The position numbers and the translations under genes were made by a program. Of a stretch of DNA of 64,000 nucleotides, positions 37,869 through 61,683 are shown one piece after another. This DNA is from Oligoflexia bacterium (GTDB lineage Bacteria; Bdellovibrionota; UBA1018): contig JACMNQ010000036.1 in assembly GCA_014378465.1 (NCBI GenBank), forward strand, positions 186,001-250,000, read 5' to 3'. The notes under the pieces were generated by a model. The model had not been told where the DNA came from. It was given only the letters and a program-made list of their open reading frames with translations, and searched no databases. How positions within the stretch are numbered: the stretch's first letter is position 1; each line of letters starts with the position of its first letter.

Positions 37869-38708
37869 TCAAGTCTTGGACGGCGCTTCGTGGGGGGATT
37901 GCTTTTTTTTACGCTGATCTCGGACCTGGAGGAGTTCGGCTGCCACACTGATGGCGATCTCGGAGGGATCGTTGCTTCCAAGAGGGAGGCCGATGGGACA
38001 ACGCAGTTGACTGATGCTCGCTTCTGGAATTCCCGCAGCTTTCAGGTCTGCCCGGATCTTGATCGCTTTCACGTCGCTGCCGATCGAGCCCAGGTAAATC
38101 GGGTCTGGAAATTTCTTCAGAATTGCAGTGAGAATCGGCATGTCTGAACCATGACCTTGAGTCATGACCACGACGAAAGTGCGAGGGTCGAGCTTTTCGA
38201 CGTATTGAGCGGGTTCAGGAAGACAGAGCGCTTTGATTCTGATCGCTGCGCCCGACTGCGGAAGTTTTTCGATCCATTCGGGCCGCGGATCAATCACGGT
38301 CACGCTGCAGTCGAGTGTGCTCAAAGTGCGCGAGACTGCCTGGGCCACGTGTCCTGCGCCGAATACGACGATGTTCCAGCTCTCGCGGTGGTGCACTTCA
38401 AAGACATAAGTGACTTCGCCCCCGCAGGTCATGCCGATGTCTGTCTGAAGATTCCACGTGACCGCGAAAGCGGGGGGGCGTTCAACTCCGCGATTCGGAA
38501 GTTCACTCAGCAGTTTCTTCGAGTCCTCGATCACTCGGGCTTCGACTTTGCCGCCTCCGACCGTGCCCCAGCGGAGTCCGTTTTCGGTGACGATCGCCTT
38601 CGCTCCCGGATCCTGAGGCGCATGACCCCGTGAAGCGATCATCGTGATGACGACGAAGGGCACTGCGCTTTCGTCGAGCGCGGAGGCTATGGACCAGAAG
38701 TCTTTCAT
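37869..38708 (-). CDS. xdhC: Xanthine dehydrogenase accessory protein XdhC
   Basis: A 279-residue protein. The N-terminal XdhC domain includes VVITMIASRGHAPQDPGAK and GTVGGGKVEA, and the C-terminal Rossmann domain has VVFGAGHVAQAVSRTL, VVVMTQGHGSDMPIL and YLGSIGSDVKA. XdhC binds the molybdenum cofactor, promotes its sulfuration and delivers it to XdhB. The start overlaps the xdhB stop (ATGA), so it is the last gene of xdhA-xdhB-xdhC. The lysine-rich tail is not conserved. Confidence 0.93.
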   Translation of the reverse strand: MKDFWSIASALDESAVPFVVITMIASRGHAPQDPGAKAIVTENGLRWGTVGGGKVEARVIEDSKKLLSELPNRGVERPPAFAVTWNLQTDIGMTCGGEVTYVFEVHHRESWNIVVFGAGHVAQAVSRTLSTLDCSVTVIDPRPEWIEKLPQSGAAIRIKALCLPEPAQYVEKLDPRTFVVVMTQGHGSDMPILTAILKKFPDPIYLGSIGSDVKAIKIRADLKAAGIPEASISQLRCPIGLPLGSNDPSEIAISVAAELLQVRDQRKKKQSPHEAPSKT

Positions 38709-41179
38709 GGCGCGGATGATTTCCCAGAAGGTGCCAGGCGAGCGAATTTTTCCGGCATGAGTGCGCGAAGAACTTCCTCCTGCGTGGCCGGGAGTTCCAT
38801 GCGCGGGTAATGTTCCTTGTACTCAGGCAAGCCCTTGAGGGCATCATGAATCGCGGTCCAGACGCTGAGAGAGAGCAGCAGGGGAGGTTCCCCCACGGCT
38901 TTCGTTCCCCTGAGATTCGCGAAATTGCGATCGTTGGCGAGGAGCTCGATCTTGAAATCGCGAGGAGTGTCCTGAATGCTCGGAATCTTGTACGTGCTCG
39001 GTGAATAAGCGAGAAGAGCCCCGTCCTTGTTGTAATGAAGCTTCTCTGTCGTGACCCAGCCCATGCCCTGAATGAAAGCACCGGTGACCTGCCCGAGATC
39101 CAGCGCTTCGTTGACCGGGCGGCCAAGATCCATGAGAATGTCCACGCTGAGCACTTTGACTTCGCCGGTGTCGAGATCCACTGAAACTTCGGAGGTCGCG
39201 GCGCCTTGCGTGAAGTACATGAACGCGTCGCCGCGACCCGTGAGCTTGTTGAACGAAAGACCCGGAATCCGGTAGTGGGCGTAGTCCGAAAGGGAGATCC
39301 GGTGGTGGTACGCTTCGTTGACGAGCGCCGCGAAACTGACCTGCTTCGGGTTCGAAGGGTCATCGAGATTCGGGCAGAGGACCATGCCGTCCTTGAAGGT
39401 GACGCCGTGGTAACTGGCAATGCCTGTTTCCCAGATCGCGTCGGCATTGGGGTCATTCACCTTGTCCTTTTCAAAGCCTTCGATCGAAACTTCGATCTCA
39501 GGTTCGGTCCCGAGTCCAGCGGTGTGGCGTGCCCAGCGACTCTCCGGAATCTTGAGAACCTGGATCGCCAGCTCGCTCAGGCGAGCCTTGATCTTGCGAA
39601 CGGCCAGCACGGCAGCCGCGCCATTGAGATCCGTACCGCTCGACGCCGCCGTCGGAGAAGTGTTCGCATTTTTGTCCGTGGCAGTCGCCATCATGCGCAC
39701 TTCATCGCGCGAAATCCCGAGTTCCTGGGCGACCAGCTCTGAAATTCGCGCATTCACTCCCTGGCCCATCTCGGTGGCGCCCGTGGAAACCTGAACACTC
39801 CCATCGCGGTGAATGATGACCAGTGCATTGGCCTGGTTCAAAAACCGGGTAGTGAAGGAAATCCCGAACTTGACGGCCGTCAGCGAAATTCCGCGCAGGA
39901 GGCGAGATGAACCGCTCAGCGCTTTGGCATTCTGCTTCTGAATGCGCGCGCGGCGAGCTTTGTACTGAGAACTCGTTTCAAGCCTCTCGAAAAGCTCAGG
40001 GAGGCAGTTGTTTTCGACCTTCTGACCGTAGTGAGTGATGTCGCGGCCGCCGATCGCCGTGTAGCAGTTGAGCTTTCGGATCTCGAGCGGGTCTTTCCCC
40101 AGGGCGTGCGCGATTTCTTCGATGATGCGCTCGATGGTCGCGACTCCTTTCGGTCCCCCGAAGCCGCGAAATGCCGTATGCGGATGGTAGTGGGTGCGAC
40201 AGACCTGTCCGACCACTCGCATGTGCGGGATGAAATACGCATTGTCACTGTGAAGCATCGCGCGTTCCATGATCGAAGTCGAAAGATCGGCGTAAGCGCC
40301 GCCATCTGAGAAAAGCTCGACGTCGAGTGCGACAATCTTTCCCTCGTCGTCGAAGCCGACGCGGTACTGATTTTCAAACGGATTGCGTTTGCCCGTCATG
40401 ATCATGTCATCATCCTTGGTCAGGATGAGTCGAGCCGGACGGTTGAGTTTCTGCGCGACGAGGGCCGCATAGGCCGCAATCGGTGCGGCCTGGGACTCTT
40501 TGCCCCCAAAACCGCCGCCCATGCGTTTCACGATGCAGACGACGTCCCGGTAAGGGAGTCCCAGACCGTGAGCGACCACATGTTGAGTTTCAGTCGGGTG
40601 CTGAGAAGAAGAATGAACTTCGATCTGTCCATCTTCCTTTGGATAGGCGATCGCCGCCTGACTCTCGAGGTAGAAGTGATCGGCTCCGCGGATGATGATG
40701 TTGCCCTGGAGCTGATGGGGAGCGGATTTCAGCGCGGTTTCGACGTTGCCGCGTTCGATCTTGCGCGAGCCCGCGATGAACGACTGGGCCGCCTTGGCCT
40801 GATCGATGCTCAAAATGGCGGGGAGCGCTTCGTAAGCCACTCGGATGAGGGAGCGGGCCACGCGCGCGGAATCGCGCGTTTCAGCCGCGATGAGCGCGAT
40901 CGCTTCGCCGACGAAATTGACTTCCTGATCCGCGAGCAGGGGTTGATCCTTGAAGATGGTGCCCCAGAGATTATGGTGAAAGTCCTTTGCCGTATAGATC
41001 CCGAGCACTCCCGGGTGCTTCAGCGCCCGACCCAGCTCGATGTCCCGGATGCGGGCATGGGCCTGTCTGCTGAACAGCACTTCGACGAAAACTTCACCCC
41101 GCAGCGCTGGGCGATCATCGATGAATTCACTCAGACCTCGGACATGATTGTGAGCGGAATCGTGAGGAAGAGTGCTCAT
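38705..41179 (-). CDS. xdhB: Xanthine dehydrogenase, molybdopterin-binding subunit
   Basis: An 824-residue XdhB. RMGGGFGGKES, the arginine motif TAFRGFGGPKG, GATEMGQGVNAR and the catalytic glutamate in GTKAVGEPPLLLS are all present, as in bacterial and eukaryotic xanthine dehydrogenases. It hydroxylates hypoxanthine and xanthine to urate at the Mo centre. It overlaps xdhA by ATGA. Length is normal. Confidence 0.95.
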   Translation of the reverse strand: MSTLPHDSAHNHVRGLSEFIDDRPALRGEVFVEVLFSRQAHARIRDIELGRALKHPGVLGIYTAKDFHHNLWGTIFKDQPLLADQEVNFVGEAIALIAAETRDSARVARSLIRVAYEALPAILSIDQAKAAQSFIAGSRKIERGNVETALKSAPHQLQGNIIIRGADHFYLESQAAIAYPKEDGQIEVHSSSQHPTETQHVVAHGLGLPYRDVVCIVKRMGGGFGGKESQAAPIAAYAALVAQKLNRPARLILTKDDDMIMTGKRNPFENQYRVGFDDEGKIVALDVELFSDGGAYADLSTSIMERAMLHSDNAYFIPHMRVVGQVCRTHYHPHTAFRGFGGPKGVATIERIIEEIAHALGKDPLEIRKLNCYTAIGGRDITHYGQKVENNCLPELFERLETSSQYKARRARIQKQNAKALSGSSRLLRGISLTAVKFGISFTTRFLNQANALVIIHRDGSVQVSTGATEMGQGVNARISELVAQELGISRDEVRMMATATDKNANTSPTAASSGTDLNGAAAVLAVRKIKARLSELAIQVLKIPESRWARHTAGLGTEPEIEVSIEGFEKDKVNDPNADAIWETGIASYHGVTFKDGMVLCPNLDDPSNPKQVSFAALVNEAYHHRISLSDYAHYRIPGLSFNKLTGRGDAFMYFTQGAATSEVSVDLDTGEVKVLSVDILMDLGRPVNEALDLGQVTGAFIQGMGWVTTEKLHYNKDGALLAYSPSTYKIPSIQDTPRDFKIELLANDRNFANLRGTKAVGEPPLLLSLSVWTAIHDALKGLPEYKEHYPRMELPATQEEVLRALMPEKFARLAPSGKSSAP

Positions 41180-42672
41180 TGCAGCACTCCCTGCTCGCGA
41201 AAGAATTTCAGAAAGAGATTTTCCACCAGGACTCGGCGGAAGGCCGAGGTGCCACGCAGATCAGAAAGGGGCTGCATTTCGGAGTGAAGAATTTCGACAA
41301 CTTCATTGAGTCGCATGGAATTCGGATCTGATTTCAAAGTCAGGCCCTTCAACGCGGCCTCTGTTCTCGGCAGTCGCAGTGTCGTGGGGCCGACTCCGCC
41401 CAACGCGATTCGGACTTCCCTGATCTTCGTTTTCTTCGCATCGGACCAGGTGATTCGAAACGCCGCGTTCACGCCGGAGATGTCGAGGTCCTTGCGCTGT
41501 GAAACCTTGTAAAGAGCCAGACTTTCGGTTTTCTTCGGTAGGTCAAACTCAATCGCACTGATGAACTCACCCGGCTTGAGAGCGGTTTTACGGTAACCGA
41601 GGTAGAACTTCTCAATGGGGATCGAGCGCTTGCCCCGGGGTCCCGCCACGATGATCGTGGCCTGGGCGATCAGCAGGAAGGGAGGGGTATCCGCGATCGG
41701 CGAACCATTGCTGACATTGCCGCTGAGGGTGGCGAGGTTCTTGATCTGCGGCGAAGCGAAGAGGTCAAGAAATTTCGCGAATTCAGGGATTTTGTCCTTC
41801 AGAAAATGCCGAAGTTCCGAGAGGGTCACTCGCGAGCCCACAGTCATCCGCGTGGGACTGAGCTTCTTGACGTCGTAAAGTTCAGGGATCAGGTGAAGGC
41901 TGAGAAGCTTGGAAAGGCGAATTTTGCCCTTGTTGTGAACCACTCCCAGATCCGTGGCGGCGCCGATGAGTCGCGCGTCCGGCTGACGCCTGAGAAAGGC
42001 GGCTGCGTCTTTCAAAGTCGTGGGCGCGAAGAAGGAGAAATGTTCATTCTGAAATTTCACGGGATCTTTCAGCACCTTCTTGAGTTCACGTTCCTGAGCG
42101 AGAGAATAGAACTGATCTTTGACGGATGCGCATTTCGAGAGATCAATCGCGACTGCGGCATCGATGATCGGTTGGTATCCCGTGCAGCGACAGAGATTGC
42201 CGGTGAGGCAGTTCTTCGCTTCACGTGGGGTACAGCGAGCCCCCTTTTTCACACCGTCACAGAGTTTCTTTTCGACGAGGCCAGTGAGAGCCATGACGAA
42301 GCCTGGGGTGCAGAAGCCGCACTGACTCCCGTGCGAACTGACCATCGCCTGTTGAACAGGCGTGAGGCCAGCGGTTTGGCTCGCTAAAGCTTCGACCGTC
42401 ACGAGGCTTGAGCCGTCCATCTGGGCGACGGTGGTGATGCAGGAATTGATGGGCAGGTAAATGTTTCGCGCGGCCTGCGGGAGATTTTTTGAGGAGGCCA
42501 TCGGGCGGAGTCTCAGAACGGAACAAGCTCCGCAATCTCCTTCGGCACACACGACTTTGGTTCCCACAAGACCCCGTTCATAGCGGAGGTAATCGGAGAG
42601 CATCAGTCCAGCGTGCTCGGGCCCAACTTCTTGACGCTTTCCGTTAAGATAAAAGAGGACAGTTTTGCGCAT
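41176..42672 (-). CDS. xdhA: Xanthine dehydrogenase, FeS/FAD subunit
   Basis: A 498-residue XdhA. The first [2Fe-2S] cluster is in VCAEGDCGACSV with Cys78 (C42, C47, C50, C78), and the second is in SQCGFCTPGFV and CRCTGYQPI. The FAD domain follows (ATDLGVVHNK, TLSGNVSNGSPIADTPP). It carries electrons from the Mo centre to NAD+ or another acceptor. ATG 42672 gives the usual MRKTVLFYLNGK start; the 19 codons before it are not conserved. It is divergent from the urate oxidase gene across 80 bp with an imperfect TGATTATCTTATCA palindrome (42678-42691). Confidence 0.94.
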   Translation of the reverse strand: MRKTVLFYLNGKRQEVGPEHAGLMLSDYLRYERGLVGTKVVCAEGDCGACSVLRLRPMASSKNLPQAARNIYLPINSCITTVAQMDGSSLVTVEALASQTAGLTPVQQAMVSSHGSQCGFCTPGFVMALTGLVEKKLCDGVKKGARCTPREAKNCLTGNLCRCTGYQPIIDAAVAIDLSKCASVKDQFYSLAQERELKKVLKDPVKFQNEHFSFFAPTTLKDAAAFLRRQPDARLIGAATDLGVVHNKGKIRLSKLLSLHLIPELYDVKKLSPTRMTVGSRVTLSELRHFLKDKIPEFAKFLDLFASPQIKNLATLSGNVSNGSPIADTPPFLLIAQATIIVAGPRGKRSIPIEKFYLGYRKTALKPGEFISAIEFDLPKKTESLALYKVSQRKDLDISGVNAAFRITWSDAKKTKIREVRIALGGVGPTTLRLPRTEAALKGLTLKSDPNSMRLNEVVEILHSEMQPLSDLRGTSAFRRVLVENLFLKFFREQGVLQ

Positions 42673-42677
42673 GTTTT

Positions 42678-42691
42678 TGATTATCTTATCA
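42678..42691. promoter_or_regulatory. Imperfect palindrome between xdhA and the urate oxidase gene
   Basis: TGATTATCTTATCA has TGAT/ATCA ends and lies just before the xdhA start in the 80-bp divergent promoter region of the purine genes. It could bind a regulator of both directions, but it is short and AT-rich, so chance is possible. Confidence 0.25.
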
Positions 42692-42752
42692 GAGTGAAAA
42701 TGCCAATTCTTTCTCCTGTAATTCCACAAGCATCTAGGCTAATCAAAATCGG

Positions 42753-44408
42753 GTGAATCAAGACATTTTAGACTGGATCCTCCTGCTCGGACGTTGGCTG
42801 CATATCACCGTGGCGGTGGCGTGGATCGGCACTTCGATCTTCTTCATGTGGCTGGATCGAACTCTCGAATTCAACGGAGCTTCTCAGAAGCCCGGTCATG
42901 TCGGCGAGCTCTGGATGGTGCATGGCGGCGGTTTCTACCACGTCGAGAAACTGCTGATGGGTCCGACGAAAGTTCCCGAATACCTGCACTGGTTCAAATG
43001 GGAATCTTATTGGACCTGGATGAGTGGCGCTTTTCTCCTGGCACTCATTTTCTATACGGGGGGCGGAACCTTCCTGCTCGACTCCACGGTATCCGGAATC
43101 AATTTCTGGCAGGCCGCGGGCATCGGCATCGGGTCCATTCTGATTTCCTGGCTCTTTTATGATTTCGTCTGGGAGCGCGAGCTCACTCGCAGGACTCCGT
43201 GGATCGGTCATTTTCTCACGCTTGCCTGGCTGGCCGGCATGTCCTATTTTCTCTGTCACACGCTGAGCGGTCGCGCGGCTTACATCCACATCGGTGCGAT
43301 GCTGGGCAGCTGGATGACCGCAAACGTCTTTCTCCGGATCATTCCCCGTCAGATCAAGATGGTGGAAGCTTCCAAAAAAGGGGAGCCCGTCAATCAGGAG
43401 TGGGGCAAGAATGCCAAGAATCGCTCCACTCACAACACCTACTTCACGCTTCCCGTGATCTTCCTCATGATCAGCAATCATTTTCCGGCGACTTACGGTC
43501 ATCCCCTGAACTGGGTGATTCTGCTCGTGATCAGTGCCGCCGGCGCGGCCATCCGTGAATTTTTCGTCGTACGAGTGAAGAAGCCCACGCGGGCCTGGAG
43601 ATTCGCCGCAGTGGGGATTTCTCTGATTCTGGGCGTGATTCTTTTCACGCGTCCAGGCAACGGCGTGGTTGCGGCGTACTCGCACGACGCTGTATTACCC
43701 GTTGCAGCCATCGGCTCGACTTCCGTCCTCCCCGCGGCAGCTTCTCCTCCGGGTCCTCCGGGAAAAGCGTCCAGTGGAATTCATGGAAGCGTCCGCTTCG
43801 AAGGAGACGCACCTGCCCCCGAAAAACTGCAGATGCCACCGGATTGCAAGAATCCGGACGGCGGCGATTCGTATTCCAATCAGATTCAGATCAAGGATGG
43901 AATGATCAAGAACGTCCTCGTGCGTGTCACGAAAGGGTTTGAAGGCAAAACCTTCACGGATATCCCGAGTGAGACAGTTGTGCTGGATCAGCGGGGTTGC
44001 CTCTATGTCCCTCGGGTCGTGGCAGCTCGAGTGGGGCAGAAAGTCGAATTTCTGAACAGTGATTCGACGATCCACAACGTGAGAATGATTTCCAAAAATA
44101 ACCCCGAGTTCAACGAAATCACCCCGAAGAAGAATGACCGCATCACCAAGATCTTCGCTCAGCCCGAGCTTTTCATGCAGAGCCGCTGCAACGTGCATCC
44201 GTGGATGGGCGCCTACATTGCCGTGATGGATCACCCTTATTTCGGCGTGAGTGATGCGAATGGCGAATTCGTCATTCCCGCCTTGCCGCCGGGAAAGTAC
44301 ACTTTCGAGGCCTGGCATGAAGTTTTTGGCAAACAGACCCAGGTGGTGGACATCCAGGGCGCAGGAATCGTGGAGTTGCGATTCACCTTCAAGAAGCAGG
44401 GGCAGTGA
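42753..44408 (+). CDS. PuuD-type membrane urate oxidase fused to a cupredoxin domain
   Basis: A 551-residue protein. Residues 1 to about 305 are the eight-helix urate hydroxylase membrane domain (PuuD/DUF989: LLLGRWLHITVAVAWIGTSIFFMWLD, HGGGFYHVEK, FKWESYWTW, NTYFTLPVIFLMISNHFP). In described PuuD a C-terminal cytochrome c follows, but here there is no CXXCH. Instead, residues 350-500 form a plastocyanin-like domain with probable type-1 copper ligands His441 (STIHNV), Cys479, His482 and Met485 (CNVHPWM). A small carboxypeptidase-regulatory-like beta domain ends the protein. Urate would be oxidised to 5-hydroxyisourate with electrons leaving by copper. GTG start at 42753; the next gene starts 4 bp after the stop. 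Confidence 0.85.
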   Translation: MNQDILDWILLLGRWLHITVAVAWIGTSIFFMWLDRTLEFNGASQKPGHVGELWMVHGGGFYHVEKLLMGPTKVPEYLHWFKWESYWTWMSGAFLLALIFYTGGGTFLLDSTVSGINFWQAAGIGIGSILISWLFYDFVWERELTRRTPWIGHFLTLAWLAGMSYFLCHTLSGRAAYIHIGAMLGSWMTANVFLRIIPRQIKMVEASKKGEPVNQEWGKNAKNRSTHNTYFTLPVIFLMISNHFPATYGHPLNWVILLVISAAGAAIREFFVVRVKKPTRAWRFAAVGISLILGVILFTRPGNGVVAAYSHDAVLPVAAIGSTSVLPAAASPPGPPGKASSGIHGSVRFEGDAPAPEKLQMPPDCKNPDGGDSYSNQIQIKDGMIKNVLVRVTKGFEGKTFTDIPSETVVLDQRGCLYVPRVVAARVGQKVEFLNSDSTIHNVRMISKNNPEFNEITPKKNDRITKIFAQPELFMQSRCNVHPWMGAYIAVMDHPYFGVSDANGEFVIPALPPGKYTFEAWHEVFGKQTQVVDIQGAGIVELRFTFKKQGQ

Positions 44409-44412
44409 GACC

Positions 44413-44766
44413 ATGATCAGCACGCATATTCTGGATACGAGTGCTGGCAGTCCTGCCGAGGGAGTCGCAGTCCGACTTGAAATTCAAAGTGGGGCCGCCG
44501 CACCCGTTTCTTCACTGAACAGTTCAGCCTGGACCGAAGTCAGTTCGGGCGTCACGAACGCCGATGGTCGCTTCGTGTTTGCGGATTCCGGCGCTGCGGG
44601 AACCTACCGGATCCATTTCGAAGTTCAGCCTTATTTCGTGCACCAGAAGAAAGAAGCCTTCTTTCCAACCGTATCCGTGGTCTTCCGGGTTGAAAACACG
44701 CAGCGCAAGTATCATGTGCCGCTGCTTCTGAATCCGTACGGCTATTCAACCTACCGAGGGAGCTGA
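44413..44766 (+). CDS. 5-Hydroxyisourate hydrolase (transthyretin-like)
   Basis: A 117-residue HIUase, which hydrolyses 5-hydroxyisourate to OHCU. It begins STHILDTSAGSPAEGVAVRLEI and ends with the diagnostic C-terminal YRGS. HHFEVQPYF-type sequence is represented by IHFEVQPYFV, and HVPLLLNPYGYSTYRGS is typical. No signal peptide, so it acts in the cytoplasm. It lies 4 bp after the urate oxidase gene and 3 bp before the large fusion gene. It is the second step of the urate pathway. Confidence 0.95.
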   Translation: MISTHILDTSAGSPAEGVAVRLEIQSGAAAPVSSLNSSAWTEVSSGVTNADGRFVFADSGAAGTYRIHFEVQPYFVHQKKEAFFPTVSVVFRVENTQRKYHVPLLLNPYGYSTYRGS

Positions 44767-44769
44767 GTT

Positions 44770-47700
44770 TTGGAAATCCGTTATTACAAAGACTATGTTT
44801 CTCAAGCTCTTCTGAATCATCTCAAAGCGGAGAGCCGCGAGGTTGCGGGCGTACCGGGCCTCCGTCAGGTCGGTGACAACGGCAAGGGCTCTGGAGCGAG
44901 TGAACTGGAGACCCCAGCCGCTCTGGCTTTTCTCTGTCAGCTTCACGACCTTGTCCAGGTGGAACTGAATCGCCTTCTTGAGCAGAGGATCATCGATCGT
45001 AAGTTCATTGATGAGAGAACTCACGCATCTTGCGAACTGAATCGGCTCCTCAAGACTGATTTCCTGAATCCTCGCTATGAGACGGTCATCGGCCAGGTGG
45101 ATGGTCGAGGCCGCAAGGTCGTGGGACCCGTCACTGACTTCTACTGCAGACCCGGCGGGGGAGCGCCCGTGGCTCCCATCCCTGACTACCTTGAGGGGCC
45201 CCACGTCACGCTGTTTGGTCCTCCGGACGATGCCAAGCTTTCGATCAATGCGATGAATGCGTTTCATCGCAAACTCAAGGATGAACCTGCCATCGTGGCC
45301 GAGTTGCTCTCAGGCGAATCGACTCAGTTTTCTCCCCAGTTTTCTCCGATGTGGGGCGCCGACGACGAAGATTCCAAAACTCCCTTGCGAAGAGATCTCG
45401 TCGCTGCCGGCGAAAATCTGGCGGGCTGCTTTGACGGCACGCTGTCGTTCACGGACGCGAAGTCAGGAAAAGCTTACGGGCTGGAGGCCTCGCGTCTCGC
45501 TCTTCCGATCAAACGCTTTCCGGGCCTGGCTCTCCCTTGCCTGTTTTTTCTGTACCAGGATCAGCCGCTGCCGCTGCACCTCTATGACTTTGCGCTCCAC
45601 TTGTTCAGGAACTGGAGCAATCCGCGAGCGCTCGTTTTTTATGTGCCCAAGCTCGAGAATGAAGAAGAAGCCCGCTATATCCGCCTGATGATGGAGTCGG
45701 CCGAGACGCTGATCCAGAAACTGCATCCGGAATACCGGCTCGGCACCATCCGTCTCATGGTCGTGCTCGAGAACCCGCGCGCGATTTTCAGAGTCAACGA
45801 GATCATGGATGAACTTCATCCCTATTTCGTGGGAGCCTCACTCGGCTGGCATGATTATCTGGCGTCTACCGCACGGCTTTTCAAGGAAGACGCGAATTAC
45901 CGGATCCCGGTCAAAGCGGATCCCGACATCGTCATCAAATACATCAAGGCTTCTCATGATCTCCTGGCCGAAGTGGTCGGATCACGGGGCGGCATCAAGG
46001 TGGGAGGAATGTACGGCATCCTTCCGATGGGAACTGATATCAAGGGAGATTCATTTCAAGTCACGATCCGTGGCTTCATCAAGGACGTCATCACGCAGCT
46101 CAAGCGTGATCTGACGGGCTTCTGGGTCGCGCATCCGGATTTCGTCCGGATCGGCATGGCGCTCGTGCAGGCCTGGAAGCTCAACCTTGCCGGAGACGGC
46201 TCGAAACTCACCACGCTCGTCACCGCCTTGCTTGACGGGAAGTACCACGGCGACATCCTGAACTTCATTTCGGGACCTGACCTCATCGGGCTGGACCGTG
46301 CTGACCCGCTTTACGCACGAGCCCTTCTGGTTGCGGACATGAAGGAGTCCAGTTGGATCGCGAACAATCATCCGAATGAAATTCGCTACAACATCTTTCA
46401 GTCCCTGCAGTACCTTGCCGACTGGTTGACCGGAAATGGGTGTGTGGCGTTGCCTGCCCAGCTTGACGGCGTAGCGGTTCGCGTGATGGATGATCTGGCG
46501 ACTGCCGAGCGATCGCGCTGGGAAGTCTGGCATGAGCTGCACCATGGACGATTCAGTGTCGAAGAATTCCTGAAGATCGCACACGAGGAGTATCACTTCA
46601 TTCAGAAGGACCTCTCGGATTCGAAGAAGATCGTGCAGGTCAAATGGACGGAGAAGACGGCCAGGTGGTATCCCATCGCGCTGAATCTCATGATTGAACT
46701 CATGACTCGGCCCACGCCACCGGAATTCGCGACCGAACTTCTGCTGCCCTTCACCGTGGATTCGATCCGCAATGCGCCGGATCCCTGGAAGGCGATCCGC
46801 GCTCTGGAACCGGAAAAATATCAGACTTCGCCCTACGTCGAGCGGTTCGTGAAGTATTTTGCCATCTGTGGGAGTCGTTCCTTCGCCCAGGCGATGGCGA
46901 AGAATGCAGTCCCGGGTCGCAAGCTGGCCGAAAAGATCATTCGTGAATTCACAGTGGAGCAGGTCAACGAAGCGGCAGGATTTCATGGTGATATCGGCGA
47001 GAGTCGAAAGACCCTGGATGCGCTCGCATCACATGAGCAGGCTCTCGTCCTGCAGGAAAGTGAAGCGGTTCGCCTGGAGCTCCTGACTCTCGGAGAAGAA
47101 TACCGATCGCGCTTTGGCATGAAATTTCTGATTTCGGCGCAGGGAAAGTCAGCTTCGGATATCCTGAGCGCTCTCAAGTCTCGGTTTTTAAACACGCCCG
47201 CGCAAGAACTCGACCGTGCGCGAAGCGCCCTTTGGGAAATCACATCGAAGCGACTGACGGCTCCTGGAACAGTGGATCTTGCTGATACGCTGGAGGAGTT
47301 GCGCAAGAAGCACCAGATCGTTGGAGCGACCGTGACTTTGAGCACGCCTGTGCCGGCGAGCGCAGCCGCCCCGGAGGCGGTGGGGCAGTCTTCACTGCAG
47401 ACCTTCGGTCTGGGTGAAGCGATTCGCGGTGAAACTCCCGTTCAGGAAACGACGCTTTTTCAAATTGCCTCGCTCAGCAAGACCTTCGCAGTCTGCTTTG
47501 CGATTGAGTACTTCAAGAAGGCCAAAATTTCACCTTCGACTTCGGTCAATGCACTTCTGGCAAAGACTTCGACGCCGTTTCGTCTCCAGTCCCTGGACCT
47601 GAAGCACCCCGAGTGGGCGGAACAGGTGACGCTTCTTCATCTCATGAGTCACGGCGCCCTGAACATGCACTATGTGAAAGGTGTTCCTGCTTCGAAGAAG

Positions 47701-49608
47701 ATGCCGAGAGTGGGCGAGCTCCTCCTTGATGGCAAGTCTCATGGCTATGATCCGGTTGGAGTGCTGCACGCACCCGGCACGGTCTTTCAATACTCGGGAG
47801 GAGGCTTTCTCGTCCTCGAGCATTTGATTGAAAGTCTCGAAAACCGTCGCATCCAGGAAGTGACCGCGCCGTTCTTTCAGGAGCTGGGACTGTCCCACTT
47901 CACATTCGAGCAAGCCTCGCAACCCGGACGTGACTACGCGGCTGGCTACTCGGTCGCGGGAGAAATGACGCAGGACTCTCGATTGATGTTCCCCGCCTTT
48001 GCAGCGGGCGCGATGTCGACTTCGGAGGACGTGGCAGTTTTTCTGAACCGGATGACTGTCGCCTACAGCGAACTGCGCTCGCGTGCGCCGCTTTCTCATT
48101 ACACTGCCGTTCAGATGTTTCACGGACCGACCCAGGGGGATCAGGGCTGCCGTAAATTCATGGGAGTGACGCGCGGCCTGGGGCTTTTCATCGCCGAAGC
48201 GGGAAAGAATCGCCTGGCTCTTCATCAGGGCGCCAATGAGGGTTACCGCTGCCTTTACGTTCATTGCTTCAAAGGTCCCGATGCGGGCATGGGCTTTGTC
48301 CTGCTCTGCAGTGGGGAACTCAACGGCGTGCTGTTCATCGCGGAAGCCGCGCAGGCGATCCTGAAAACGTTTCAGATGGAAGGCATTGATCCTGAGCGCT
48401 TCCAGAAAACGTTTCTGGCTTCGCAGGTTGCAGCCGAGGAAATCGTCAATACGGGCTATAAAGAGCTCATTTTCTCCGCTTTCGAAAGGGACCGGGCGGA
48501 AGAGATCGTGATTCAGGGTCAACTCGATCCAAGAGCGAAATTCAATCGCGCGGTGGGCGCAAGAGTTCTCGAAGTCACGAATGAGCGCTTTGCTCGCGTC
48601 GAAAATCTTCTGTCTGATCATCTCCCGGTCTTCGACCCGGAACTTTTTGGTCGCCAGGGCAAGATCATGGACAGCTGGGAAAGTGTTCGTCACAATCCGC
48701 TGGACCGGGATGTGCTGGTCTTTGAACTCAGGCAACCTTCAAAGATTCAGTACGTTTCCTTCTCCACGCAGTTTCATCTGGGCAACCATCCCCAGTCCGT
48801 GAAAGTTGAAGCGTCTGAATCCCTGGATGCGCCCTCGGGCGGAGCTGATCAGGCACACTGGTCAGTCCTGGTTCCGCAAACTGCGCTCGAAGGACATTCT
48901 TTGACGGAAGTGCGCAGTGAAAAGACTGATACCGTTTTTCGATTTGTTCGCGTTTCCATGTTTCCGGACGGCGGCCTTTCCAGGCTGGGTCTCTTTGACG
49001 AGAGTCTTCCGGTAGCTGAGCAGGCGTGTTTTCAGCCACATGCGGAGGCAAAAAGCGTCGCGTTTGCTGAAAAGATTCCGCACTCCTTGAAACCTCTCGC
49101 TCCGCACTACGAAGCGGGTCCTGAAGAGATCGAGAAGAACTGGCAGTCGGTTCCGGCGGGAAGCGAAATGGATGTCGCCTGCAGTGCCTTTGGAGGGAAG
49201 ATCGTTCGAGCCTCCAATGAGCACTACAGTCCCGCCACGCAGATCATCTCGCCTTATCCTCCGATTCACATGTTTGATGGGATGGAGTCGGCCAGGAGCC
49301 GGATTTCCGGGCACTTTGAAGATGTCGTGGTGGAGTTTCTCAGGCCGTCCGTGATTTCAAGAATAGAAGTGGACTTCAGTTTTTTCGTGAACAACAATCC
49401 GCTGGAGCTGAGTCTCGAAGGCGGCACGAGGGCTGCCGACGGTTCCGAAGTGTGGAAGCCTCTGGTTTCGCGCACCCCGGTGAAAGCCTACGCCGGCAAT
49501 GCGATTGAGTTCGTGATTTCAAGTCCTGAGAAGTTCACGCTCCTTCGCGCGGTGGTTCATCCAGATGGCGGGATCAATCGCTTGCGGGTGTATTCGCGGA
49601 ACTACTGA
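44770..49608 (+). CDS. Four-domain purine/glyoxylate enzyme: malate synthase-OHCU decarboxylase-serine hydrolase-allantoicase
   Basis: One uninterrupted 1612-residue frame from TTG 44770 (GAGGGAG lies before it). Residues 1 to about 690 are a divergent malate synthase: FYVPKLENEEEAR, Mg ligands Glu334 (VVLENPRAIF) and Asp362 (GWHDYL) 28 apart, GGMYGILP, WVAHPDF, and base candidate Asp575 in VMDDLATAERSR; the RPRG motif is not obvious. Residues ~690-845 are OHCU decarboxylase (FHGDIGE with His739, Glu756 in SHEQ, FGMKFLISAQGKSASDIL). Residues ~850-1245 are a class-C beta-lactamase-like serine hydrolase (Ser901-x-x-Lys904, Tyr1008 in YSGGG, LHQGANEGY). Residues ~1265-1612 are two allantoicase repeats (MDSWESVRH; HLGNHPQSV). 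It would link ureide breakdown to malate. Confidence 0.88.
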   Translation: MEIRYYKDYVSQALLNHLKAESREVAGVPGLRQVGDNGKGSGASELETPAALAFLCQLHDLVQVELNRLLEQRIIDRKFIDERTHASCELNRLLKTDFLNPRYETVIGQVDGRGRKVVGPVTDFYCRPGGGAPVAPIPDYLEGPHVTLFGPPDDAKLSINAMNAFHRKLKDEPAIVAELLSGESTQFSPQFSPMWGADDEDSKTPLRRDLVAAGENLAGCFDGTLSFTDAKSGKAYGLEASRLALPIKRFPGLALPCLFFLYQDQPLPLHLYDFALHLFRNWSNPRALVFYVPKLENEEEARYIRLMMESAETLIQKLHPEYRLGTIRLMVVLENPRAIFRVNEIMDELHPYFVGASLGWHDYLASTARLFKEDANYRIPVKADPDIVIKYIKASHDLLAEVVGSRGGIKVGGMYGILPMGTDIKGDSFQVTIRGFIKDVITQLKRDLTGFWVAHPDFVRIGMALVQAWKLNLAGDGSKLTTLVTALLDGKYHGDILNFISGPDLIGLDRADPLYARALLVADMKESSWIANNHPNEIRYNIFQSLQYLADWLTGNGCVALPAQLDGVAVRVMDDLATAERSRWEVWHELHHGRFSVEEFLKIAHEEYHFIQKDLSDSKKIVQVKWTEKTARWYPIALNLMIELMTRPTPPEFATELLLPFTVDSIRNAPDPWKAIRALEPEKYQTSPYVERFVKYFAICGSRSFAQAMAKNAVPGRKLAEKIIREFTVEQVNEAAGFHGDIGESRKTLDALASHEQALVLQESEAVRLELLTLGEEYRSRFGMKFLISAQGKSASDILSALKSRFLNTPAQELDRARSALWEITSKRLTAPGTVDLADTLEELRKKHQIVGATVTLSTPVPASAAAPEAVGQSSLQTFGLGEAIRGETPVQETTLFQIASLSKTFAVCFAIEYFKKAKISPSTSVNALLAKTSTPFRLQSLDLKHPEWAEQVTLLHLMSHGALNMHYVKGVPASKKMPRVGELLLDGKSHGYDPVGVLHAPGTVFQYSGGGFLVLEHLIESLENRRIQEVTAPFFQELGLSHFTFEQASQPGRDYAAGYSVAGEMTQDSRLMFPAFAAGAMSTSEDVAVFLNRMTVAYSELRSRAPLSHYTAVQMFHGPTQGDQGCRKFMGVTRGLGLFIAEAGKNRLALHQGANEGYRCLYVHCFKGPDAGMGFVLLCSGELNGVLFIAEAAQAILKTFQMEGIDPERFQKTFLASQVAAEEIVNTGYKELIFSAFERDRAEEIVIQGQLDPRAKFNRAVGARVLEVTNERFARVENLLSDHLPVFDPELFGRQGKIMDSWESVRHNPLDRDVLVFELRQPSKIQYVSFSTQFHLGNHPQSVKVEASESLDAPSGGADQAHWSVLVPQTALEGHSLTEVRSEKTDTVFRFVRVSMFPDGGLSRLGLFDESLPVAEQACFQPHAEAKSVAFAEKIPHSLKPLAPHYEAGPEEIEKNWQSVPAGSEMDVACSAFGGKIVRASNEHYSPATQIISPYPPIHMFDGMESARSRISGHFEDVVVEFLRPSVISRIEVDFSFFVNNNPLELSLEGGTRAADGSEVWKPLVSRTPVKAYAGNAIEFVISSPEKFTLLRAVVHPDGGINRLRVYSRNY

Positions 49609-56066: not shown

Positions 56067-56894
56067 ATGCGGAGTCGTCCCGAAAACATTCTTCTGACCT
56101 TTTTGATTGTGATCAATGCAGTCTCGATTTTTGGGTTTGCAACTTTTGGGCTCCATCCCGAACTCCTGTCACGTTGGCCCTGGAGTGTCTCGATTTTCGC
56201 AGTCAGCTATCCGCTGTTTGCGCGTCTTCAGATTCTCGTCGCGTTTGCTTCGCTTGCAGTCGCACTGTCAAGTGTATCCCGCTGGCGTTGGTGGGTTTCG
56301 TTCGCAGTCCTCTTTTCACTCAGTGCTGCAAGTGAACTTCTCGGCACGACTTATGGGATCCCGTTTGGGCGGTATGAGTACACTGAGTTTCTGGGGCCGG
56401 CAATTCTTGGACGTGTGCCTTGGCTGATCCCCCTGAGCTGGTTTTTCATGGCAGTCCCTTCCTATCGCCTGGCGCAGTTGGCGGTCGGTGAACAGTCATT
56501 CGCCTGGCTTCGGGTGGTTGTCGGATCTCTTTTACTCTTGTCCTGGGATATCACTTTGGATCCGGCCATGAGTCATCTGTCCCCCTTCTGGCGGTGGGAA
56601 AACCCCGGCGCCTACTATGGAATTCCGGCACGTAATCTTTTGGGTTGGTTTGTGACGGGGCTGGTGTTGATCAGCGTGCTGGAGTCGAAGTTTTCTCGGG
56701 TCTGGCTCTCAAAAGTTTCGTCGAAATTTCTTGTCTCTTTTTATCTCGCCAATCTTGTTCTCCCAGTCGGGATGTGTGTGGCGGCAGGTCTCTGGTTGCC
56801 GGTTGCCATCACGAGCGGAGTGGCAGCTGCGCTGGGGTTTGCAATCTACCTCGCGCTTCGCAGGGAGCTGAATGTGTCCTTCGCAAAGAGCTGA
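56067..56894 (+). CDS. cruF: CruF-like carotenoid hydratase (DUF422)
   Basis: A 275-residue membrane protein with about eight helices. It matches the carotenoid 1,2-hydratase/DUF422 family: EYTEFLGPAILGRVPWLIPLSWF, SWDITLDPAMSHLSPFWRWENPGAYYGIPARNLLGWFVTG. CruF adds water to the psi end of gamma-carotene-type carotenoids to form a 1'-hydroxyl for glycosylation; related enzymes act on C50 carotenoids. The 112 bp before it separate it from crtW and contain a G8 run. It is followed after 9 bp by the acyltransferase gene. Confidence 0.85.
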   Translation: MRSRPENILLTFLIVINAVSIFGFATFGLHPELLSRWPWSVSIFAVSYPLFARLQILVAFASLAVALSSVSRWRWWVSFAVLFSLSAASELLGTTYGIPFGRYEYTEFLGPAILGRVPWLIPLSWFFMAVPSYRLAQLAVGEQSFAWLRVVVGSLLLLSWDITLDPAMSHLSPFWRWENPGAYYGIPARNLLGWFVTGLVLISVLESKFSRVWLSKVSSKFLVSFYLANLVLPVGMCVAAGLWLPVAITSGVAAALGFAIYLALRRELNVSFAKS

Positions 56895-59662: not shown

Positions 59663-59803
59663 GATCCTGCACTACCACTTTTGACTGAAATTTGTTTTTC
59701 AAAAGATGTCCTGCGATTGGCCTGTTTCTGGCTTCCTTCCTGGTCTGTCAATGAAAGGACTAACTTCGGGGCTTTTTCGGATTTATCCGGGACTTTTTAA
59801 GTT

Positions 59804-59832
59804 GAGCTGTGTTAACGACAATCAGACAGCTC
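59804..59832. promoter_or_regulatory. Inverted repeat upstream of the rhodopsin gene
   Basis: GAGCTGT and ACAGCTC are 7-bp complementary arms 15 bp apart, 39-67 bp before the rhodopsin start. A regulator site or a leader hairpin are possible. The AT-rich 208 bp between 59663 and 59870 hold no gene. Confidence 0.3.
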
Positions 59833-59870
59833 TGTGGTTATACAAATCTTTCACTAAAGGGAAACCAATC

Positions 59871-60641
59871 ATGCTTGAATTGAGTTCTGGCCAATACTTC
59901 ACTGTTTACAATGTCCTCTCATTCACGATTGCGTCCATGTTCGGCGCGTTCATTTTCTTTCTGGGTGCAAGGAGTCAGGTGGGTGAAAAATATCGACCTG
60001 CCCTTTTGATCTCGGCCGTAGTGGTCGCAATTGCCGGCTATCATTACTTTCGAATCTTTGACAGCTGGACCCATGCTTACGCTCTTGCAGACGGCGGGAT
60101 TTACAAGGCTACGGGAGCGGTATTCAATGATGCCTATCGTTATGTCGATTGGCTGCTCACCGTGCCTCTCCTTTTGATTGAATTGGTCGCAGTGCTCGCC
60201 CTCGCCAAGAGCGACCGCGAGGGTCTTTTCGGAAAGCTCGCGATTGCGGCATTCCTGATGATCGCCCTGGGATACCCGGGAGAGATCGCCTCAGACATGA
60301 CCACACGGGCGATCTGGGGAGCGCTGAGTACGGTTCCCTTCGTCTACATTCTGTACATTCTCTGGGGCAAGCTGGGCAAGGCCATGGATGCGCAGACACC
60401 CCAAGTGCGAGTGCTTCTGAGAAATATCCGCCTTCTCCTCATTGCGACATGGGGTTTTTACCCAATCACGTACATGCTGCCGATGTTTGGGATCCCGCCA
60501 CAGTCCTCGGTCGTGGGCATTCAGGTCGGTTACGCGATCTCTGACGTTTTGGCCAAAGCCTTCTACGGTGTCATGATTTACTGGATTGCCCGCGCCAAGT
60601 CTGAAGCGGATGGTTCACTTCCGGCGGGCTCTGCTCACTGA
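59871..60641 (+). CDS. Xanthorhodopsin-like light-driven proton pump
   Basis: A 256-residue seven-helix microbial rhodopsin. Helix C reads RYVDWLLTVPLLLIEL, giving proton acceptor Asp93, Thr97 and donor Glu104 (the DTE set of outward proton pumps); Leu101 at the tuning site suggests green absorption. His58 in GYHYFRI pairs with the acceptor. Retinal Lys229 is in SDVLAKAFYG. The helix D-E region GYPGEIASD...IWGALSTVPFVY resembles xanthorhodopsin and Gloeobacter rhodopsin, with Gly150 as a candidate for the opening that admits a keto-carotenoid ring. ATG 59871 follows AAAGGGAAA. blh for retinal synthesis is convergent downstream. Confidence 0.94.
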   Translation: MLELSSGQYFTVYNVLSFTIASMFGAFIFFLGARSQVGEKYRPALLISAVVVAIAGYHYFRIFDSWTHAYALADGGIYKATGAVFNDAYRYVDWLLTVPLLLIELVAVLALAKSDREGLFGKLAIAAFLMIALGYPGEIASDMTTRAIWGALSTVPFVYILYILWGKLGKAMDAQTPQVRVLLRNIRLLLIATWGFYPITYMLPMFGIPPQSSVVGIQVGYAISDVLAKAFYGVMIYWIARAKSEADGSLPAGSAH

Positions 60642-60667
60642 AGGGTCCCCCGATACTGGATTGAAAT

Positions 60668-61573
60668 TCAGAGGCCCGACTCGTCCACTGGACGAGTCGG
60701 GCTTTTTCTTGTTCGGTAGAACCGCTTCATCACCTGGGCATGTGAAAGAGTGAGGGCACCCAGCGAAACAAAGAGGATCGACCAGAGTGAATCACGCTCG
60801 CCCCTGGCTAGGGTCACAGAAGCCAGCAGAGCCACCCCCAACCAGGCCAGGACTGTGAAAGGGATGCTTTTTTTCAGGTACTGCCTGATGCTCCAGCCTT
60901 TCGCCTGCATCTGATGAGTGACGGAGTCCCAAGCGTGCCAGAAGACAAAGAAGCACAGAAAGCCCGGCAGAAGCGGCAGTCTCGCCAGCGCCAGCAGAAG
61001 AATCAGAGTTCTCACGACTGCTTTCGGGCGGTTCTTGCTCTGGAGGCCTGCGGCAATCAGCCCGCAAGTACCCAGAGTGGCAGCCCACAGTCGAGGAGAA
61101 TCAATGGAGAGTCCGCTCGGAAAGCCCATTTTTTCTAGAATGACCAGTGTCTCGCTCCAGTGAAATAGCGGTGAGAAGAGTGAGGCACAGAGCCCCCAAA
61201 TCCAGGCCGCGCACCGAAGCAGGCGTGCTGAGCGGAGCGTTCTTCTGTCTTCATGAATAAATTCACATTCTCCGAAGTGTTCCGCCGATAGCGCCATGAA
61301 GACCAGGAGAGCTGCGAAAGGGGTCCAGTGCCACAGGAGCAGAAACAGTGCGATTTGCAGAAGATAATTGGCGTAGAATTTCACAGGTGACGATTTGGCC
61401 TGTGGATCCCACTCGTGATCAACGGCCCCGTGAGCCATGCCGATGCTGAGAAGTCCCAGGAGGGGAAGAGCCCACTGCGCCAATCCTGTGAAGACTGCGC
61501 TGATGAGCACGGCGGGGAGGAAAGGAAACGACTGAAGTTCAAGCCTTTGAAAGTTTACGCGCATCAGTGTCAT
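60668..61573 (-). CDS. blh: Beta-carotene 15,15'-dioxygenase (Brp/Blh family)
   Basis: A 301-residue membrane enzyme that cleaves beta-carotene to two retinal molecules. Conserved histidine motifs GMAHGAVDHEW, SAEHFGECEF, FWHAWDSVTHQM and LSHAQVMKRFYR match Blh. It supplies the chromophore of the adjacent rhodopsin. A GGAAGGGTG stretch precedes ATG 61573; another ATG at 61564 is possible. Its 3' end shares the terminator hairpin with the rhodopsin gene. Confidence 0.9.
   Translation of the reverse strand: MTLMRVNFQRLELQSFPFLPAVLISAVFTGLAQWALPLLGLLSIGMAHGAVDHEWDPQAKSSPVKFYANYLLQIALFLLLWHWTPFAALLVFMALSAEHFGECEFIHEDRRTLRSARLLRCAAWIWGLCASLFSPLFHWSETLVILEKMGFPSGLSIDSPRLWAATLGTCGLIAAGLQSKNRPKAVVRTLILLLALARLPLLPGFLCFFVFWHAWDSVTHQMQAKGWSIRQYLKKSIPFTVLAWLGVALLASVTLARGERDSLWSILFVSLGALTLSHAQVMKRFYRTRKSPTRPVDESGL
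60674..60709 (+). terminator. Rho-independent terminator of the rhodopsin gene
   Basis: GCCCGACTCGTCC and GGACGAGTCGGGC form a 13-bp perfect stem with a 3-nt loop, followed by TTTTTCTT. It lies 33 bp after the rhodopsin stop, inside the last codons of blh on the other strand. Confidence 0.93.
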
Positions 61574-61683
61574 CACCCTTCCCGATCTTGAATAAAGCAA
61601 TGGCTCAGGTGTTGAGCGGAGTCAACCTCTGAGCCATGTGCTTAAACCGGGGTGAGGAAAATGAATCCTCAGTTCCGCCTCAA

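Follow-up and report, generated by a model that had tools for sequence, protein, structure and literature searches.

How is the ring of allantoin opened in a bacterium whose purine genes lie together and whose genome holds neither known type of allantoinase? The question is raised by a window of 64,000 nucleotides from an Oligoflexia bacterium (positions 186001-250000 of contig C2, from a genome of 4.04 Mb that is 94.5% complete). Positions 37869-49608 of this window encode xanthine dehydrogenase (XdhABC), a PuuD-type urate oxidase, 5-hydroxyisourate hydrolase (HIUase) and one fusion protein of 1612 aa, each assigned by Pfam. In a single frame, the fusion joins malate synthase, 2-oxo-4-hydroxy-4-carboxy-5-ureidoimidazoline (OHCU) decarboxylase, a serine hydrolase of family PF00144 and two allantoicase repeats, in this order. 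We propose that the serine hydrolase (domain 3) is probably a covalent-serine allantoinase, a metal-free and non-orthologous replacement of AllB. The fusion and its domains are as follows:

44770..49608, plus strand: four-enzyme fusion, 1612 aa (Pfam; architecture shared with 80 named loci and 12 other genomes of the class)
44770..46836, plus strand: domain 1, malate-synthase-like (Pfam; motif residues; TIGR01344 at 141.8 bits, cut-off 594.5)
46837..47265, plus strand: domain 2, OHCU decarboxylase (PF09349 at 73.8 bits; column conservation)
47266..48435, plus strand: domain 3, beta-lactamase-fold serine hydrolase, proposed allantoinase (PF00144 at 83.3 bits; model; fold matches; motif invariance)
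48487..49605, plus strand: domain 4, allantoicase, two repeats (PF03561 at 175.7 bits in two stretches; own-genome matches)

In residues of the fusion, the Pfam matches span 253-465 (MS_TIM-barrel), 536-647 (MS_C), 719-829 (OHCU_decarbox) and 883-1185 (PF00144), with the two Allantoicase repeats from residue 1263. Domain 3 is therefore flanked, by this placement, by the OHCU decarboxylase that makes allantoin and the allantoicase that consumes allantoate. A structural model of these three domains together reached a predicted local distance difference test score (pLDDT) of 90.8 and a predicted template-modelling score (pTM) of 0.90. The N-terminus of the fusion has no signal peptide evident by inspection, and the protein should thus be cytoplasmic.

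The remaining steps are assigned by sequence. Xdh yields urate, PuuD produces 5-hydroxyisourate and HIUase produces OHCU; OHCU decarboxylase, in which H739 of the FHGDIGE motif is invariant, forms (S)-allantoin, allantoicase converts allantoate to ureidoglycolate and urea, and malate synthase makes malate from glyoxylate and acetyl-CoA. For the textbook reaction of allantoinase (EC 3.5.2.5), two unrelated solutions are known, AllB and PuuE. With domain 3 in this role, we read the locus as a complete urate-to-malate pathway.

To establish which enzymes are present, curated profiles were run against the whole genome. No protein exceeds the AllB cut-off (TIGR03178, 357.85 bits), and the best match, at 229 bits, is the dihydroorotase. 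PuuE (TIGR03212, cut-off 424.6 bits) has no homologue in this genome and was above the cut-off in none of the 13 fusion genomes of the same search; it was found above the cut-off in one control genome and in G169, one of the genomes with separate pathway genes described below. Only four Amidohydro_1 proteins are encoded, which NCBIfam names as 5'-deoxyadenosine deaminase, dihydroorotase (PyrC, with its gene adjoining pyrB and carA), adenine deaminase and imidazolonepropionase (HutI), and these were ruled out as allantoinases based on the NCBIfam names and gene neighbourhood. PF04115, the family of ureidoglycolate lyase (AllA), has no match anywhere in the genome. The first-pass annotation had reported that the window lacks both an allantoinase and a ureidoglycolate lyase, and this holds at the scale of the genome: standard genes for either enzyme were looked for elsewhere and not found.

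The fusion is not confined to this bacterium. Full-length or cut by contig ends, it occurs in 12 others of the 58 genomes of the class that were searched (52-60% identity), where it forms an operon with the PuuD and HIUase genes, often with xdhABC alongside. When 84,980 named genomes were scanned with the domain 3 alignment, using two of the motifs described below, 80 named loci were recovered from Bdellovibrionota/Bacteriovoracaceae and Planctomycetota, although some submitter names look misassigned. The four domains follow the same order in essentially all 80 loci where the contig is long enough, and none of the loci encodes a close relative of domain 3 as a separate protein. Recurrence of the full-length fusion in independent assemblies and phyla rules out a chance or assembly artefact.

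We then compared fused and free forms of the pathway. OHCU decarboxylase was detected in 93 of 369 genomes of the phylum, free (as a short protein or small fusion) in 26 and within the long fusion in 64; three weak, partial matches among the 93 were left out. The comparison covered 80 genomes, namely all 26 with the free form and 54 with the fusion, the ten fused genomes set aside being mostly the least complete. AllB scores above its cut-off in 22 of the 26 free genomes versus none of the 54 fused ones. Three further free genomes (G343, G179 and G055) carry an AllB truncated at a contig edge and the last, G169, has a PuuE above the cut-off, whereas PuuE reaches its cut-off in none of the 54. 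Overall, an allantoinase is found in 26/26 free and 0/54 fused genomes (Fisher p about 1e-21 for raw genomes and 1e-10 by genus). A search for AllB in 23 more whole fusion genomes from the named loci, Planctomycetota included, again gave none above the cut-off; PuuE was not searched there. The 54 and 23 fusion genomes together rule out incompleteness of metagenome-assembled genomes as the reason for the missing allantoinase. Both pathway types occur within three families (f1, f9 and f11), and one genus (g15) holds a free genome with AllB (G038) and a fused genome without it (G039). The first-pass annotation had suggested that domain 3 either opens the allantoin ring or acts on ureidoglycolate; this comparison strengthens the former part, while the latter is weakened by the absence of the lyase from 23 of the 26 free relatives as well.

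Gene order points the same way. In most of the 26 free genomes the genes for AllB, allantoicase, OHCU decarboxylase and HIUase lie side by side, and a protein of family DUF6986 adjoins HIUase in 21 of the 26 clusters. None of AllB, DUF6986 and ureidoglycolate lyase was present in 90 fusion neighbourhoods. When the free and fused gene sets are matched, AllB is left opposite domain 3, and the match indicates a one-to-one swap of domain 3 for AllB and of the malate synthase domain for DUF6986. The neighbours conserved around the fusion are HIUase, urate oxidase and xanthine dehydrogenase; there is no further one, other conserved open reading frames (ORFs) being found in at most 13 of the 80 loci. 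An unknown conserved neighbour that supplies the allantoinase step was thus ruled out, and the pattern of allantoinase loss is not explained by a co-inherited gene nearby. Separately, small fusions occur in free clusters (L165:7877-9730, L189 and L159:1338-3965), either of AllB with OHCU decarboxylase (G178 and G179) or of PuuD with AllB (G045).

Domain 3 carries the motifs S901-L-S-K904, Y1008-S-G1010 and H1152-Q-G1154 (HQGxN), and S901, K904, Y1008 and H1152 are invariant in all homologues, across two phyla. The same invariance is seen in homologues found by full-length similarity or through the OHCU decarboxylase family, where the motifs were not used; these are the unbiased sets, as opposed to the large scan. 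Conservation of the SxxK residues, proposed earlier as a check, was therefore upheld, and no homologue has lost the active serine. The PF00144 profile matches at 83.3 bits (gathering score 27), and an AlphaFold2 model (pLDDT 94, pTM 0.94) adopts the beta-lactamase fold. Foldseek matches reach an E value of about 1e-19, and VIA-align gives Z scores of 32-36 over about 310-344 residues at about 20% identity, the best matches being IS11 esterase, a Pyrococcus PBP homologue, LACTB, ClbP, D-amino acid amidase, R61 DD-peptidase and AmpC. At the position of a family-specific segment, H961xALNxH967YV, the loop of relatives such as Flp is shorter. By score or motif the domain is not a class C beta-lactamase: it obtains 38.8 bits against the NCBIfam cut-off of 415, and the class C motifs YxN and KTG are absent, with YSG and HQG in all homologues.

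A mechanism can be proposed by analogy. S901, deprotonated by K904/Y1008, would attack the hydantoin-ring carbonyl whose C-N bond is hydrolysed by allantoinases, in the way that class C beta-lactamases act on the carbonyl of a beta-lactam. Ring opening would leave an acyl-enzyme at S901. Water would hydrolyse this intermediate, with H1152 standing in for the KTG lysine, and allantoate would pass to the adjacent allantoicase domain. The reaction by which beta-lactams are opened would in this way be carried over to a five-membered ring with no metal needed. Ureidoglycolate might then be broken down spontaneously, in allantoicase or in the malate synthase domain.

Several points weigh against an allantoinase function of domain 3. 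The assignment is built on the comparison of genomes together with gene order and conserved residues, and the open-licence papers searched gave no allantoinase of the beta-lactamase fold. The allantoicases of fused and free pathways fall into two distinct clades (one change, 100/100 support), so the fusion is a single module that arose once and has spread or descended. Thus, the genome counts are strong but not independent, and the Fisher p-values overstate the contrast. Moreover, 16 of the 54 fusion genomes have a cyclic amidohydrolase that matches AllB below the cut-off at E<=1e-70 (38 have none); three of these were identified as dihydropyrimidinases, and that of G019 matches a dihydroorotase in length and score. 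In the genomes concerned, hydantoin rings could be opened by enzymes of this kind, and an unrecognised allantoinase may be encoded elsewhere in fusion genomes. A dihydroorotase or dihydropyrimidinase/hydantoinase might accordingly moonlight as allantoinase and leave domain 3 with another role, which we consider quite improbable. Fusion genomes do have a dihydroorotase, some of them also a D-hydantoinase-type enzyme, and these cyclic amidohydrolases share their mechanism with allantoinase (PMC9863593). However, an AllB-like match at that level is limited to the 16 genomes, the window's own genome has no such enzyme besides PyrC, and free-pathway genomes hold such enzymes yet keep AllB. Three extra AllB-like matches in relatives of the class were considered as allantoinases and proved to be D-hydantoinase/dihydropyrimidinase instead.

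It is also improbable, in our judgement, that domain 3 acts on ureidoglycolate, as lyase or amidohydrolase, while some other unrecognised enzyme opens allantoin. PF04115 has no match in the 54 fusion genomes, nor in any other fusion genome tested, and the ureido amide could be cleaved by a serine hydrolase. Yet PF04115 occurs in only three of the 26 free genomes, so that absence of the lyase is not specific to the fusion, and only the absence of allantoinase tracks it. In pathway order domain 3 precedes allantoicase, the fusion has no conserved neighbour that could supply an allantoinase, and ureidoglycolate breaks down to glyoxylate and urea of its own accord (PMC3793230). We give little credence to a role on another substrate (such as a stereoisomer or by-product of allantoin or OHCU) or in regulation or assembly, the pathway then stopping at allantoin or continuing beyond it by slow leakage. 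The fold is versatile, its best matches including an esterase, LACTB, a D-amino acid amidase and a DD-peptidase, but the allantoicase and malate synthase of the same polypeptide would be left without a supply of substrate, and catalytic residues invariant over two phyla are unlike a purely structural role. Finally, sequence similarity to class C beta-lactamases and DD-peptidases could indicate a cell-wall or antibiotic-related hydrolase joined to purine enzymes by chance. This is very improbable given the low class C score, YSG and HQG in place of YxN and KTG, the expected cytoplasmic location and the retention of the same fusion wherever it is found.

With domain 3 as the favoured allantoinase, a malate-synthase-type partner would be a better candidate than the serine hydrolase for any enzymatic ureidoglycolate step. 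The three free genomes with PF04115 show no DUF6986 beside the cluster, while 21 others have DUF6986 and no PF04115, and this mutual exclusion points to the malate synthase domain. In domain 1, R249, E334, D362 and D574/D575 align with residues of the malate synthase A motifs RPRGW, IET, RWDY and MEDAATAE, which we take to be the catalytic Arg, the Mg-ligand Glu and Asp and the base Asp. Since these residues are retained, conversion of glyoxylate to malate by domain 1 is plausible, although its score falls below the cut-off of the malate synthase A equivalog TIGR01344 and it is a divergent member. A second, ordinary malate synthase is encoded elsewhere in the window's genome (contig C76). DUF6986 (PF22484) itself has motifs resembling those of malate synthase (VETT, GTYDY and DDAATGQG); single proteins match MS_TIM-barrel weakly and show weak malate synthase/HpcH similarity, while the DUF6986 profile compared with that of the fusion's malate synthase gives a probability of 8%. 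It may be a glyoxylate- or ureidoglycolate-consuming enzyme. Examples are:

L161:9716-11059, L163:6477-7808, L164:1-1341, L166:6679-8025, L169:10657-12039 and others: DUF6986 genes

A more far-reaching possibility, which we offer tentatively and regard as unlikely in full, is that the fusion acts as a self-contained production line leading from OHCU to malate. Domain 3 would be a third, metal-free class of allantoinase working via an acyl-enzyme, the malate synthase domain would take glyoxylate directly from ureidoglycolate, and neither a classical allantoinase nor a lyase would be needed. DUF6986 would then be the stand-alone counterpart of the malate synthase domain.

The other genes of the island are as follows:

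37869..38708, minus strand: XdhC, accessory protein (Pfam)
38705..41179, minus strand: XdhB, xanthine dehydrogenase molybdopterin subunit (Pfam)
41176..42729, minus strand: XdhA, xanthine dehydrogenase FeS/FAD subunit (Pfam)
42753..44408, plus strand: PuuD-type membrane urate oxidase with C-terminal extension (PF06181 at 355 bits)
about 44413..44766, plus strand: HIUase (PF00576 at 116.8 bits; start inferred from the match)

The HIUase gene and the fusion abut, the former ending at 44766 and the latter starting at 44770. Pfam bears out the gene content and coordinates given for this island by the first-pass annotation, with one correction, namely that the xdh genes are on the other strand and diverge from the urate oxidase gene. 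The C-terminal tail of PuuD (window 43770-44408), common to most Bdellovibrionota homologues, has an apparent cupredoxin pattern by eye (H...C-x-x-H-x-x-M); other PuuD proteins have a cytochrome c at this place. In some Planctomycetota fusion loci (L070:6121-7032 and L078:5957-6844) a different conserved ORF beside HIUase, cofactor-free uricase-like by eye, replaces PuuD, so that urate oxidases of unrelated types apparently serve alongside the fusion. An amidohydrolase gene adjoining PuuD in three relatives (L032:13528-14847, L038:4473-5810 and L040:13520-14857) was rejected as an allantoinase because it is guanine deaminase-like, below the equivalog cut-off; it extends the purine island upstream to guanine. 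In two cases (L107:7519-12127 / L178 and L119:7436-12043) the fusion frame is broken by a frameshift or stop, one inside the OHCU decarboxylase and the other inside domain 3, as natural splits or assembly errors. Elsewhere in the window, a bacteriorhodopsin-like gene (PF01036) adjoins a beta-carotene 15,15'-dioxygenase gene (PF15461) at 59706-61600, and a carotenoid biosynthesis gene lies at 56067-56894; this group is probably a light-driven pump island.

If the assignment is correct, domain 3 would be a third unrelated allantoinase, in which a penicillin-binding/beta-lactamase fold opens a hydantoin ring. Carriers of the fusion would be scored as lacking allantoinase, which would lead to a wrong picture of purine use in Planctomycetota and in Bdellovibrionota, a phylum with predators that take up the nucleic acids of their prey. 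As a natural line of several enzymes, the fusion would also lend itself to studies on the channelling of unstable intermediates (OHCU and ureidoglycolate). We found no report of the fusion, of DUF6986 or of a serine-hydrolase allantoinase in open-licence papers.

Among known systems, AllB (TIGR03178) is a binuclear metal amidohydrolase (PMC9863593). It holds the same place in the pathway as is proposed for domain 3, allantoin to allantoate, and is present where the fusion is absent, whereas domain 3 is a serine hydrolase of unrelated fold and chemistry. PuuE (TIGR03212), an allantoinase recruited from polysaccharide deacetylases (Ramazzina 2008, as cited in PMC9863593), provides a precedent for an unrelated hydrolase taking this role within a purine cluster; in contrast to this free protein with a NodB-type fold, domain 3 has a third fold and lies inside a fusion. 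With class C beta-lactamases and other PF00144 proteins (R61 DD-peptidase, LACTB, IS11 esterase, D-amino acid amidase), domain 3 shares the fold, the SxxK and Tyr motifs and a presumed acyl-enzyme route, but differs in its low identity of about 20%, the YSG and HQG motifs, the HxALNxHYV segment and its fusion to purine enzymes. The closest parallel in pathway terms is the free cluster of AllB, allantoicase, OHCU decarboxylase, HIUase and DUF6986, found in the same phylum with corresponding domains or genes. There the enzymes are separate proteins, with a metal-type AllB and DUF6986 where the fusion has a serine hydrolase and a malate synthase domain.

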